This document shows positions 18,108 through 22,312 of a stretch of 36,226 nt of DNA, one piece after another; position 1 is the stretch's first letter, and each line of letters begins with the position of its first letter. Made by a program: the position numbers and the translations under genes. The DNA is from Actinomycetales bacterium. GTDB lineage: Bacteria > Actinomycetota > Actinomycetes > Actinomycetales > Actinomycetaceae. The stretch is taken from positions 72,612 through 108,837 of the forward strand of contig JAATFD010000041.1 in the NCBI GenBank assembly GCA_015655375.1, written 5' to 3'. The notes beneath the pieces are model-generated. The model searched no databases. It worked only from the letters and a program-made list of their open reading frames with translations, and was not told the DNA's origin.

Positions 18108-18122
18108 ATGAGAAGGATTGTC

Positions 18123-19238
18123 ATGAACAAGAACGAGCCGCCCACCGACCGCGTGACACACTGCGGGCCCTTGGATGTCCACGATGCCGCTTCTGAGTGC
18201 GCCAATTCCGCGACCCAGACCGGGATCACGGGCGCATCGGCGTCGTCTGTCGGCGTCGACTCGGGTCCCCTTCCGTCAGTTTCTTCCGGATCCGCCTCCG
18301 GCCCCGACGACCACGACCACGACCACGCACAGTCCCATGAGCACTCCCACTCGAGCGCCACGAACTCGCGCACGCGCCTCACCCTCGCTCTCCTCGTCAC
18401 CGCGACCGTCCTCGTTGCGGAGCTGATCGGCGCCGTCGTCTCCGGGTCCCTCTCGCTGGCCGCCGACGCCGGTCACATGCTCGTCGATTCGGCGGGATTG
18501 ATCATCGCGTTGATCGCCGCCCATCTGATGACCCGGCCGCGCGACGACCGCCACACCTGGTGCTGGGCACGCTCCGAGGTCATTGCCGCTGCACTCCAGG
18601 CCGGCATGCTCGCCGTCATCTGCCTGATGGTTGCCTTTGAGGCGGTCACGCGCCTGCTGGAGCCGACGACACTCGAACCCGTTCCCATGCTCATCATCGG
18701 CATCATCGGACTCGTGGCCAATGCGCTGTCACTGGCGATCCTGGCGGGCGGGCGCGGGGAGTCGCTGAACATGCGCGCCGCCGTCCTCGAGGTCGCCAAC
18801 GACGCGCTCGGATCGGTTGCCGTCATCGCAGCGGCGCTCATCGCGATGGCAACGGGATGGGGTGGCGCGGATGCGATCGCTTCTCTGTTCATCGCTGCGT
18901 TGATGGCGCCCCGCGCCTTCGCTCTGCTGCGCAAGTCCGTGCGGATCCTCATGGAGGAGACCCCAGAGTCGCTCGACCTGGAACTGGTGCGCCAGCACAT
19001 CCTCGCCCTGCCCGAGGTCCGCGACATCCATGACCTCCACGTGACGACCATCGCCTCCGGCGTGATCTCCTTGACCGCCCACATCACCGTCGACGAGGAC
19101 GCGACCGAGCATGAGCGCCGTGACCTCGTCCACACCCTGCAGGACTGCGTCGCCACGCACTTCGCCGTGCCGGTGGATCACTCGACCTTCCAGATCGACT
19201 CCCCCGAGCATCGCGACCACGAGCTCCTCGCCCATTGA
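18123..19238 (+). CDS. Cation diffusion facilitator (CDF) metal exporter
   Basis: A 371-residue CDF transporter, a proton-coupled exporter of divalent metals. The N-terminal about 80 residues carry a His-rich segment (DDHDHDHAQSHEHSH, 62-76) and scattered Cys/His. Six membrane helices follow; helix 2 has AADAGHMLVDSAG with the site residues His118 and Asp122, and helix 5 has EVANDALGS, giving Glu223 and Asp227 where zinc exporters usually have His and Asp. The C-terminal cytoplasmic domain (EETPESLDLE, LPEVRDIHDLHV, HITVDED) is typical. ATG 18123 has AGAAGGA 5 nt upstream. Metal choice is open: the upstream operator points to a CsoR-type sensor rather than a zinc regulator. Confidence 0.9.
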   Translation: MNKNEPPTDRVTHCGPLDVHDAASECANSATQTGITGASASSVGVDSGPLPSVSSGSASGPDDHDHDHAQSHEHSHSSATNSRTRLTLALLVTATVLVAELIGAVVSGSLSLAADAGHMLVDSAGLIIALIAAHLMTRPRDDRHTWCWARSEVIAAALQAGMLAVICLMVAFEAVTRLLEPTTLEPVPMLIIGIIGLVANALSLAILAGGRGESLNMRAAVLEVANDALGSVAVIAAALIAMATGWGGADAIASLFIAALMAPRAFALLRKSVRILMEETPESLDLELVRQHILALPEVRDIHDLHVTTIASGVISLTAHITVDEDATEHERRDLVHTLQDCVATHFAVPVDHSTFQIDSPEHRDHELLAH

Positions 19239-19261
19239 GCCGCGTCGCGATGAGCTCACTG

Positions 19262-19279
19262 TGCTTCACGCGCGAAGCA
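19262..19279 (+). terminator. Small hairpin after the CDF gene
   Basis: TGCTTC and GAAGCA pair around ACGCGC, 23 nt after the CDF stop. It is short and lacks a T-run, so it is only a possible terminator. Confidence 0.3.
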
Positions 19280-19306
19280 TAAGACTCGGCCCAACTCCCC
19301 ATGGTG

Positions 19307-19336
19307 TGACGTCACCCGCCTTCACCGCGCTACCCT
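19307..19336 (+). promoter_or_regulatory. Candidate promoter of the yjdF-like gene
   Basis: TGACGT (19307-19312), an 18-nt spacer and TACCCT (19331-19336) form a plausible promoter. The perfect 10-nt palindrome GTGACGTCAC (19306-19315) covers the -35 and could be an operator. Transcription from about 19343 would give a leader of about 160 nt. Confidence 0.4.
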
Positions 19337-19342
19337 GGACGC

Positions 19343-19504
19343 ACTGACGCCCCAAACGCACGGCCCGGCCGGAAGTCCGGGTGGTGCGACCGCGAAGCGA
19401 CCTCGATCACGACGGGCCGCGGACCACGGCGCTCCCGTCACCACCGCCGAGGTGGAGTCCAGAGGTCGTCAGGCATTTGACTATGCCTGAAGGAGACCCC
19501 GACC
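19343..19504 (+). ncRNA. Structured 5' leader, candidate riboswitch, of the yjdF-like gene
   Basis: The leader folds into a compact branched structure. P1 pairs CGGCCCG (19361-19367) with CGGGCCG (19413-19419). Inside it are P2, CCGG-AAGT-CCGG (19369-19380), and directly adjoining P3, GTGGT/CGA (19381-19389) with TCGATCAC (19403-19410), capped by CGC-GAA-GCG (19391-19399). A competing helix GACGGG (19411-19416) with CCCGTC (19434-19439) cannot coexist with P1. Further on, a stem around GGCG/CGCC forms at 19421-19460. A 7-bp hairpin CAGGCAT/ATGCCTG (19470-19489) abuts the ribosome site AAGGAG (19490-19495). In Firmicutes, yjdF genes are often preceded by the azaaromatic-binding yjdF riboswitch; I cannot tell whether this RNA is related to it. 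Confidence 0.6.
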
Positions 19505-19933
19505 ATGTCCACCACATTCACTCTGTTCCACGACGGCAGCTTCTGCGTCGGTATGCTCGAGATCCACGAGGACGGTCTCGTGCGCGCCGCCCGGCATGTC
19601 TTCGGCGCCACGCCCACGGACGCGCACCTGTACGAATGGCTGCTCACCCACGGGATCGACCTCGTCAATGCGGCTGACGATGCCGTTGCCGTACCGGAGA
19701 GCGCGCGGCAAAGTGTCGGGGCGCCCCGCAACCCGAAGCGGGCCGCGCGGGAGGCTGCCCGACAGGCGAAAGTCCGAGGCCCTGCGACAACGGCGCAGGA
19801 GTCCGTGAAGGCCTCGATCGCCGAACGCGCCGACCAGCACCGACGGCAATCCGCGGAATCACGCGACGAGGTCGCCGAGCACCGCCGAGAGATGCGGATC
19901 GCTCGCCAACGAGCCCACCACCGCGGACGCTGA
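19505..19933 (+). CDS. YjdF family protein (DUF2992)
   Basis: A 142-residue protein of the YjdF/DUF2992 family. The N-terminal about 55 residues match the family pattern: TLFHDGSFCVGMLEIHEDG, then RAARHVFGATPTDAHLYEWL. The rest is a highly charged Ala/Arg/Glu-rich helical tail (NPKRAAREAARQAK, EHRREMRIARQRA), also usual for the family. The function is unknown; in Bacillus relatives it is induced by diverse aromatic compounds through an RNA switch. AAGGAG lies 9 nt before the ATG. The long structured leader in front suggests post-transcriptional control. It is convergent with folD, only 4 nt apart. Confidence 0.85.
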   Translation: MSTTFTLFHDGSFCVGMLEIHEDGLVRAARHVFGATPTDAHLYEWLLTHGIDLVNAADDAVAVPESARQSVGAPRNPKRAAREAARQAKVRGPATTAQESVKASIAERADQHRRQSAESRDEVAEHRREMRIARQRAHHRGR

Positions 19934-19937
19934 CCAC

Positions 19938-20891
19938 CTACTCCGCGACTTCGTGAGGATCCGACTCGGCCGGCAGATCTGCCGGAGCATTCCGCTTGCC
20001 CACGCTCCGCTCGGCGGCCTCGACCACGTTGGTCAACAACAGCGCGCGCGTCATCGGACCGACGCCCTGGGGATTCGGCGACAGCCATGAGGCCACGTGA
20101 TCGACTCCGTCCGCAACGTCGCCCTGCAGGCGCGCCTTCCCGTCCGAACCCACGACACGCGACACCCCGACGTCGAGCACCACGGCTCCCGGCCTGACCA
20201 TCTCCGCGGTGATCAACCCCGGCGATCCGGCGGCGGCGATGACGACGTCGGCTGCCTCGACCTTCGACGTCAGATCACGCGTTCGCGTGTGGCACAGAGT
20301 CACCGTCGCGTTGATGTCCTTGCGGGTCAGCAGCAGTCCGATCGAACGGCCCACGGTCACCCCACGACCGACGACACACACGTCGGCGCCCCCGAGGTTG
20401 ATCCCGTTACGCTCGATCAGTTCGATGACGGCGCGCGGTGTGCAGGGCACGGGCGTGGAGATCGGCCCCGCACCCCTCAGCACGAGCCGCCCGAGATTCA
20501 TCGGATGCAGCCCGTCGGCATCCTTGGCCGGATCGATCCGCTCCAGCACCGCATTCGTGTCGATCCCGAGCGGCAACGGCAGCTGAACGATGTAACCCGT
20601 GCAGACCGGATCGGCATTCAGCTGATCGACAGCCGCCTCGATCTCGGCCTGAGTCGCGCTGTCCGGCAGATCGATCCGGACGGACTCCAGCCCGACCTCG
20701 ACACAATCGCGGTGTTTGCCCGCCACATAGGACACAGACCCGGGATCCTCCCCCACGAGGATCGTCCCCAGTCCAGCAACGACCCCATGCGCGCGCAAAG
20801 CAGAGACCCGCTCGCGCAGCTCGTCCTTGATCGCACGCGCGGTCGCCGCTCCGTCCAGGACTCGAGCGCTCCCCGGCCAGGGGGTCCTCAC
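19938..20891 (-). CDS. folD: Bifunctional methylene-THF dehydrogenase/methenyl-THF cyclohydrolase
   Basis: A 317-residue FolD that interconverts 5,10-methylene-, methenyl- and 10-formyl-tetrahydrofolate. Seen: SVSYVAGK with catalytic Tyr55 and Lys59, GYIVQLPLP (99-107), [10 protein letters not shown] (123-132), the NADP-binding loop [11 protein letters not shown] (173-183) and the closing [14 protein letters not shown]. The usual PGGVGPMT has Gln in place of the first Gly. The C-terminus runs about 25 residues beyond the core. The start is GTG 20891, overlapping the glyA stop as GTGA, so the pair is translationally coupled. It is expressed with glyA under the ZTP riboswitch. Confidence 0.96.
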
Positions 20892-22183
20892 TGAGGCAAT
20901 CCAGCGTAGAGCGGATGCGCATCGGTCAGCTTGGCCACGCGCGCCCGCAATCCGTCGACGTCCACCGCTGAGCTGCTTGCTGAGCCCTGGACCAACGCGG
21001 TCGCAATGATGTCGGCGACCTCGGCGAAGTCCTCCGAGTCGAAGCCACGCGTGGCCAGGGCCGGGGTGCCGATGCGCAGGCCGGAGGTGACGGCCGGCGG
21101 TCGCGGATCGAAGGGAACAGCATTGCGATTGACGGTGATCCCGACCTCGTGGAGCAGGTCCTCCGCCTGCTTGCCGTCCAGCGACGAGCTCACGAGGTCG
21201 ACCAGGACCAAGTGCACGTCGGTGCCACCGGTGACCAGCCGGATGCCGGCCTCCCGCGCATCGTCGGCACCGAGGCGCTCGGCCAGTCGCTGAGCGCCCT
21301 CGAGCGTGCGGACCTGGCGGTCGCGGAACTCCTCTGTCTGGGCAATCTTCATCGCGATCGCCTTAGCGGCAATGACGTGCATGAGCGGCCCACCCTGAGT
21401 GCCGGGGAAAACGGCGGAGTTCAGCTTCTTGCCCCATTGCTCCGTGCGCGAGGATAGGATCATCCCGGAACGGGGCCCGCCCAGCGTCTTATGGACAGTC
21501 GTCGAGACGACGTCGGCCCACGGGATCGGGCTGGGGTGGAGGTCGGCGGCGACCAGACCGGCGAAGTGCGCCATGTCAACCCACAGCGCGGCCCCGACCT
21601 CGTCGGCGATCTCTCGGAATGCCTGGAAGTCGAGCTGGCGCGGATAGGCGGACCACCCAGCGATGATCACCTTCGGGTGCTCGCGCAGGGCGATCGCGCG
21701 CACCTTCTCCGGCTCGATGCGCTGGGTCTCGCGGTCCACTTCGTAAGCGGTGGCGTGGTAGTTCTTGCCCGAGAAGTTGACACGCATCCCGTGGGTGAGG
21801 TGTCCGCCGTGAGCCAGGGACAGGCCCAGGATGGTGTCGCCCACGTTCGCCAGCGCCATCAACACCGCGGCGTTGGCCTGGGCACCGGAGTGAGGCTGGA
21901 CGTTGACGTAGTCGGCACCGAAGACGGCCTTGGCCCGTTCGATCGCCAGGGATTCCACGACGTCGACGAACTCACATCCGCCGTAGTAGCGGCGCCCGGG
22001 ATACCCCTCGGCGTACTTGTTCGTCAGGACCGAGCCCTGGGCCTCGAGGACGGCACGCGGAACGAAGTTTTCCGACGCGATCATCTCGAGGGTGGTGCGT
22101 TGACGCTCGAGTTCGTTGTCGAGAGCCGCCTGGATCTCGGGATCCAGCTCGGCCAGTGTCATGTCATTGAGGGAATCGCTCAT
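20888..22183 (-). CDS. glyA: Serine hydroxymethyltransferase
   Basis: A 431-residue PLP enzyme that converts serine and tetrahydrofolate to glycine and 5,10-methylene-THF. Seen: [14 protein letters not shown] (35-48), [15 protein letters not shown] (55-69), [12 protein letters not shown] with Asp203 and His206, and [13 protein letters not shown] with the PLP lysine Lys232. ATG 22183 is preceded by GAGAGG, which lies inside a small GGAG/CTCC hairpin. It is followed by folD with a 4-nt overlap; together they supply and process one-carbon units, the classic target of ZTP riboswitches. Confidence 0.97.
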
Positions 22184-22229
22184 GGAGCCTCTCCAGATCA
22201 GGTTCGCGCACCGGTTTCCCGGGTGGCGC

Positions 22230-22312
22230 CTCGGCCCAGGCGGGCGGCCGCAGCGTCCGATCGATCGCTCCCCGGTGGTCCCCCACCTATGCGCCAGTCA
22301 CGACGCCGCCAG
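22230..22312 (-). ncRNA. ZTP riboswitch (pfl motif) controlling glyA-folD
   Basis: Read on the minus strand, the leader contains the conserved first half GTCGTGACTGGCG, then hairpin GGTGG-GGGA-CCACC, then CGGGGAGCGA, and after a variable linker the conserved second half CCGCCTGGGC. This is the pfl/ZTP aptamer, with the GGCG of the first half able to form the pseudoknot with CGCC of the second. ZTP (or ZMP) binding signals 10-formyl-THF shortage and turns on one-carbon genes, here glyA and folD. Downstream, a GGAG-AGG-CTCC hairpin covers the ribosome site, suggesting translational control. Confidence 0.9.

Follow-up and report, generated by a model that had tools for sequence, protein, structure and literature searches.

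The YjdF-family gene of this Actinomycetales bacterium raises the question of whether the leader in front of it is a riboswitch and, if so, of which kind. We analysed a window of 36,226 nt (assembly GCA_015655375.1, contig JAATFD010000041.1), in which the leader (19343-19504) sits between a cation-efflux gene (18108-19238, +) and a coding sequence of 142 amino acids (19505-19933, +) that matches Pfam PF11208 (DUF2992) over the full profile (E 2.7e-28); genome-wide, this gene is the sole match of its kind. A sequence-only reading had described the leader as a structured, switch-like RNA and had proposed either a diverged version of the azaaromatic-sensing yjdF riboswitch (RF01764), which it took for a Firmicutes system, or a different RNA doing the same job. 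Most known copies indeed occur there, as 1060 yjdF RNAs were reported mostly from Firmicutes, but Actinobacteria are named as well (Li 2016, PMC4793209), and RF01764 scored over its gathering cut-off of 45 bits in 17 of the 396 genomes sampled from the phylum, all from other families, and additionally in L156, whose genome belongs to the same class but to a different family. The natural ligand of this riboswitch is described as unknown, the known RNA being too promiscuous to reveal it (PMC4793209, PMC7266159). Comparison with a related group whose pocket is rebuilt can narrow the search for this ligand.

Folded as a single sequence, the leader reached -73.2 kcal/mol (z -2.14), a value equalled by 4 of 200 shuffles; this is modest on its own, and the case for a structured leader is strong once relatives are added. 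Searching positions 19239-19560 against Rfam at a lax threshold aligned the whole RF01764 model (1-101) to 19342-19479 with 21.0 bits. This was the best of three matches at E up to 10 (E 0.24 over 4227 families, about 6e-5 for RF01764 alone). Matches to sul1 and mir-1228 in the leader region were rejected, lying far under their cut-offs. The alignment with the Rfam model is end to end, but its score stays under the gathering cut-off. At gathering, RF01764 likewise missed all 27 related loci of variant or intermediate type (13, 6 of 12 and 8 of 9 in three batches), so that the standard cut-off was reached by none of the 28 such copies tested, window included. We then used a covariance model, R1, that was trained on 18 further leaders of actinomycetes and on neither the window nor its nearest relative (L043). 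R1 gave the window leader 45.5 bits (E 2.3e-10), against 13.4 bits for the second-best match in the window. The same model recovered the Rfam-type yjdF RNA in place in 5 of 20 phylum loci, as well as in L112 and L124, and missed it in the other 15 of the 20 (E up to 1). By these comparisons, the stretch 19342-19479 is a conserved RNA and a homologue of the azaaromatic (yjdF) riboswitch.

Altogether, 40 leaders were located, of which 36 remained after dropping L039 and L045 (duplicates) and L098 and L101 (truncated). For the covariation analysis, 26 of the 36 (near copies thinned, L050 left out) were aligned with MAFFT, i.e., blind to structure, and P1-P4 were drawn from the Rfam alignment and by eye. 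Standard pairs filled 87.5% of the cells of P1-P4, compared with 79.7% in shuffled alignments and at most 46.2% when the helices were slid; the covariation score was 0.354 vs 0.223 in shuffles (0 of 500 as high) and 0.041-0.117 in slid positions. Both sides change in 12 of the 22 pairs of P1-P4, and the number of further pair types showed no excess (26 vs 25.9 in shuffles). P1 appeared as the weakest helix, with 68-75% of cells paired, because MAFFT misplaced it by one column in some of the rows. RNAalifold recovered P2 and P3 from the leader alignment and did not find P1 and P4. When strands were paired directly, the cognate combination was stronger than one swapped between groups 511 times for P1, 441 times for P3 and 349 times for P2, out of 598 comparisons each. 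With one leader per group, swaps were weaker in 128 of 156 cases for P1 and in 102 of 156 for the P1b:SD arm (SD, Shine-Dalgarno), and the cognate strand was the best partner in 3 of 13 and 2 of 13 groups, respectively. The absence of covariation among orthologous leaders had been named as a refutation, and this test did not refute the riboswitch. The aligned sequences place P1 as the closing helix of a four-helix junction, with P2, P3 and P4 following in this order (Table 1); P1 had been recognized correctly in the single sequence, but with two inner hairpins where the relatives show three.

Table 1. Elements of the leader in the window, with pairing partners and corresponding crystal positions
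Element	Position	Strand	Remarks
-10-like TACCCT, inferred promoter	19331-19336	+	first base 13 nt before P1; fits predicted start near 19343
P1 5' strand	19344-19351	+	pairs with 19464-19472, U19466 bulged
J1/2	19352-19362	+	C G C A C at 19357-19361 = crystal positions 14-18 (cmscan alignment)
P2 hairpin	19363-19382	+	stems 19363-19368/19377-19382
L2 CCGGAAGU	19369-19376	+	crystal 51-58; C in place of U51, A in place of U55
P3, long insert in end loop	19383-19435	+	about 19383-19392 with 19427-19435; U-U mismatch, bulged A
Free-state helix 5' strand, excludes P1	19397-19404	+	with 19462-19469; pair probability at least 0.97 in 7 of 8 pairs
Competing strand GACGGG of the sequence-only reading	19411-19416	+	with CCCGUC 19434-19439; blocks P3 and J3/4
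J3/4	19436-19440	+	GUCA 19437-19440 = crystal 95-98
P4 hairpin CCACC/GGUGG	19441-19455	+	longest complement to the SD stretch 3 nt
J4/1 AGUCCA	19456-19461	+	C19459, C19460 = crystal 117, 118
P1 3' strand	19464-19472	+	19470-19472 common to SD hairpin
SD-abutting hairpin, 7 bp, proposed expression platform	19470-19489	+	19470-19476 with 19483-19489
Shine-Dalgarno AAGGAG	19490-19495	+	9 nt before ATG; hairpin 19470-19489 adjoins

The -10-like element upstream of P1 recurs at the same place in L043 (TAACAT) and as TATAAT in L014; over the 36 leaders, its mean score was 5.47 vs 4.15 in shuffled sequences, and no good element was found within the scanned range in the L010- and L011-type leaders.

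How would such a leader act on its gene? What is called canonical here is based on RNAs of other Actinomycetota (L015-L034 from other families, and L156), the printed Rfam consensus and the crystal paper. The canonical actinomycetotal RNAs share the gene and the junction with the variants but score over the Rfam cut-off, and they differ in P4. For B. subtilis, a stretch of P4 complementary to the SD has been published (PMC4793209); likewise, P4 of the canonical leaders had at least seven (7-9) contiguous SD-complementary pairs in 19 of the 20 compared (out of 23), with a duplex energy averaging -12.7 kcal/mol over those 20. The complement averaged 4.7 nt (-8.2 kcal/mol) in 35 variant leaders, 8 of which had 7 or 8 nt, and measured 3 nt in the window. 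The variants instead carry the SD in, or directly next to, a hairpin whose 5' arm shares nucleotides with the 3' strand of P1, which makes P1 and this hairpin mutually exclusive in 30 of 31 distinct leaders; in the exception, L002, an AUG inside the hairpin had been taken as the start. The 7-bp hairpin noticed in the window at the ribosome site is borne out as this element (-9.6 kcal/mol, z -4.71; equalled by 1 of 200 shuffles). P1b:SD pairing occurs in canonical leaders, too (-7.3 vs -10.0 kcal/mol in the variants), so that the change of platform is a shift of weight and not all-or-none. The folds suggest that the variants have for the most part handed SD masking from P4 over to the P1 3' strand, and that a single aptamer fold serves two expression platforms.

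In 34 leaders, P1 and P2 were constrained to stay closed, and J1/2 and the L2 core to stay unpaired. Under this constraint the SD hexamer became more accessible in 31 of the 34 (mean 0.55, compared with 0.24 unconstrained), and the surrounding stretch did so in all 34 (0.61 vs 0.23). The window was among the three leaders without a gain for the hexamer, together with L002 and L067: its value went from 0.70 to 0.67, and that of the wider stretch from 0.53 to 0.75. Its constrained fold cost 18.3 kcal/mol relative to the free one, a wider gap than in any other of the 34 (mean 10.0; L043, 11.5), in a model covering secondary structure alone, without co-transcriptional folding, tertiary contacts or ligand energy. 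Considering the named helices alone, the P1 state of the window (-41.4 kcal/mol) was better by 3.0 than the hairpin state (-38.4). In the free fold, P1 and P3 had zero pair probability, P1 being excluded by the SD hairpin together with the free-state helix whose 5' strand begins at 19397. The prediction of an ON switch is weaker for the window than for most relatives. A further helix, formed by the strands at 19411 and 19434, had been proposed to compete with P1. It does form in the free RNA, with pair probabilities of 0.988-0.999, but the nucleotides it occupies belong to the 3' part of P3 and to G95-U96-C97 of J3/4, not to P1. No counterpart was seen in the sequence or fold of L043, and we rejected this helix as a conserved switch element; the conserved exclusion is that between the P1 3' strand and the SD hairpin.

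The ligand pocket was read against the Ruminococcus gauvreauii structure (PMC10987639) by gapless anchoring on C16-x-C18 and the GGxAG loop, in 22 of 23 canonical RNAs (L034 is off-pattern) and in 35 of the 36 variant leaders (L050, which reads A14 A15 C16 G17 C18 U55 C58 by eye, was set aside by hand). The window leader keeps most of the core, namely C16, A17 and C18, G53 and G54, A56, G57 and U58, G95 and U96, and C117 and C118, so its letters permit the crystal contacts 16-95, 17-58, 18-57, 53-118 and 54-117. C16-G95 was kept in all 57 RNAs, and 17-58 was A-U in 56 of them and G-C in L009. What is replaced in the window are U51 and the letters of two pairs, the A14-U55 floor on which the crystal ligand stacks and the A15-A97 contact: it has C14, G15, A55 and C97 instead of the canonical A14, A15, U55 and A97, and C51 and also C52 in L2. 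The floor was A14-U55 in 22 of 22 canonical RNAs, whereas the variants read C14-A55 (16), U14-A55 (16) or C14-U55 (3; n = 35); the ligand-stacking pair is thus exchanged to C/U14-A55 in 32 of 35. Pair 15-97 was AA in 19, GC in 2 and UA in 1 of the 22 canonical RNAs, and GC in 32, UU in 2 and UA in 1 of the 35 variants. The two canonical copies with G15-C97, L112 and L124, combine it with A14-U55, i.e., this pair changes on both sides within the canonical set as well, which supports the same tertiary fold. The variant leaders supply natural covariation that backs the published crystal contacts. As many of the rows are close relatives, the substitutions do not count as independent of each other. 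All 35 variants read C at position 94, where, however, the Rfam alignment has a deletion, which leaves the register unsure.

The P1-P2-P3-P4 order, the core nucleotides, the place before yjdF and the predicted translational ON switch all liken the window RNA to RF01764, from which it departs in score, pocket letters, platform and its long P3. The full-length Rfam alignment, the R1 match, the covariation, the crystal contacts that are kept or covary and the link to DUF2992 agree with the proposed relationship, and we consider it very probable that the azaaromatic (yjdF) riboswitch has a diverged homologue in this leader, which most likely acts as a translational ON switch for yjdF. In the mechanism that we infer, a planar aromatic ligand would stack in the pocket between J1/2 and L2 and stabilise the junction and P1; the closed P1 would take 19470-19472 out of the SD hairpin, and the hairpin would open, easing ribosome access and turning translation on. 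Whether the ligands have stayed the same is a question on which we see even chances: the leader may be a plain azaaromatic riboswitch, a sub-case overlapping the main reading, with the changes at 14/55 and 15/97 being neutral sequence drift. An A opposite a pyrimidine is retained at 14-55 in 32 of 35 variants, the other core contacts are kept and the gene partner is the same, but drift of this kind has to be reconciled with the constancy of A14 and U55 across all 22 canonical RNAs read and with an expression platform that differs, too, in most variants. More tentatively, and with some doubt on our part, the leaders could constitute a distinct variant class with altered ligand preference, in which the floor changed from A14-U55 to Y14-A55, the wall contact to a possible Watson-Crick pair G15-C97, and control from a P4 anti-Shine-Dalgarno to P1-strand exchange; the planar compound sensed by such an RNA may then be a narrower or different one than those accepted by the promiscuous canonical RNA.

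Three further explanations were weighed. The window RNA could be a decayed copy, trapped in its alternative fold with switching lost, as its largest fold gap, the unchanged SD-hexamer accessibility and the broken-looking yjdF loci among relatives might indicate. We regard this as unlikely, since the core nucleotides are kept, the gene matches the entire Pfam profile, the design is retained, with a smaller gap, in the nearest relative L043, and the energy model includes neither co-transcriptional folding nor tertiary contacts nor ligand energy. It is still less probable that YjdF, whose C-terminus is Arg-rich in sequence and whose gene accompanies the RNA, binds its own leader and autoregulates without a small ligand, given that the homologous B. 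subtilis RNA answers small molecules also in cells lacking YjdF (PMC4793209). A chance fold of GC-rich sequence, for which only the modest single-sequence z-score speaks, appears exceedingly improbable beside the covariation, the independent R1 match and the kept crystal contacts.

Returning to the diverged riboswitch, how widely is it distributed? The YjdF protein was present in 14 of 151 genomes of the bacterium's own family and in 3 of 296 genomes of the class sample (own genome included), and R1 matched in 40 of 213 family genomes and in 3 of 394 class genomes, again including its own. All 32 loci fetched from the family and class R1 searches, a set that contains the window's own locus and excludes ten further family matches, had a DUF2992 match downstream, in pieces or partial in L130, L149 and L150. 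Starting from the protein, PF11208 was found in 12 of 35 genomes of the genus. R1 matched in 11 of these as well, and G132, the remaining one, has a partial gene without such a leader (L046). A loose seven-base motif of the P2 loop stood upstream in all 56 distinct leaders with a DUF2992 match reaching the profile start, but as many of these loci were fetched by their RNA and the motif is short, the genus set gives the fairer count. A DNA-pattern scan of named genomes returned 74 stretches, 30 of them with a DUF2992 match within 1500 nt downstream, and brought in more Actinomyces species, two Rhodococcus, a Tsukamurella and a Micropruina MAG. The variant group is present in records of Actinomyces, Schaalia, Rhodococcus and Tsukamurella. 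In a protein tree of 55 rows, the YjdF proteins of the class Actinomycetes were split from the other group with support 100/99; the canonical-type L156 and L050 fall inside the class group, and thus the variant state is not one clean clade. We did not find a description of the actinomycete variant group in the accessible portions of the open-licence literature, and the RNAs of Li 2016 may include Actinomyces examples.

Among the 44 pattern stretches without a DUF2992 match, we examined 14. Two of these are RF01764 RNAs over the cut-off: L112 (2349-2455, -) from Streptomyces sp. NRRL F-6131 and L124 (1074-1179, +) from Kitasatospora purpeofusca. No DUF2992 match was found within 1500 nt downstream of either, and the ORF there looked glycosyltransferase-like by eye. 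This arrangement was first taken for a clue to the ligand, but the next start codon in L112 opens a short frame resembling, by eye, the start of yjdF, which makes a leftover leader of a lost yjdF gene more likely. Of the 12 others, those tested (L085, L083, L120) had no match at gathering, and the rest looked like coding or unrelated sequence; from the remaining 30, L059 had no Rfam match. L085 (3774-3861, -; Streptomyces sp. man185) has a weak R1 match of 19.9 bits upstream of an ORF that appears glutaminase-like by eye.

Several yjdF loci look broken or partial (L098, L101, L045, L130, L149, L150 and L046), taking the form of an aptamer core running into other sequence, a split gene or a leaderless partial gene. 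One genome carries two yjdF genes about 3.3 kb apart, each with an R1 match (L041 and L047; G550:C2:1037111 and 1040451). In the window itself, the Rfam matches at gathering are a tRNA and a ZTP riboswitch (RF01750, 50.9 bits; 22227-22311, -), the latter upstream of an ORF resembling glyA by eye (20888-22183, -), which is followed by a folD-type gene according to Pfam (19938-20891, -).
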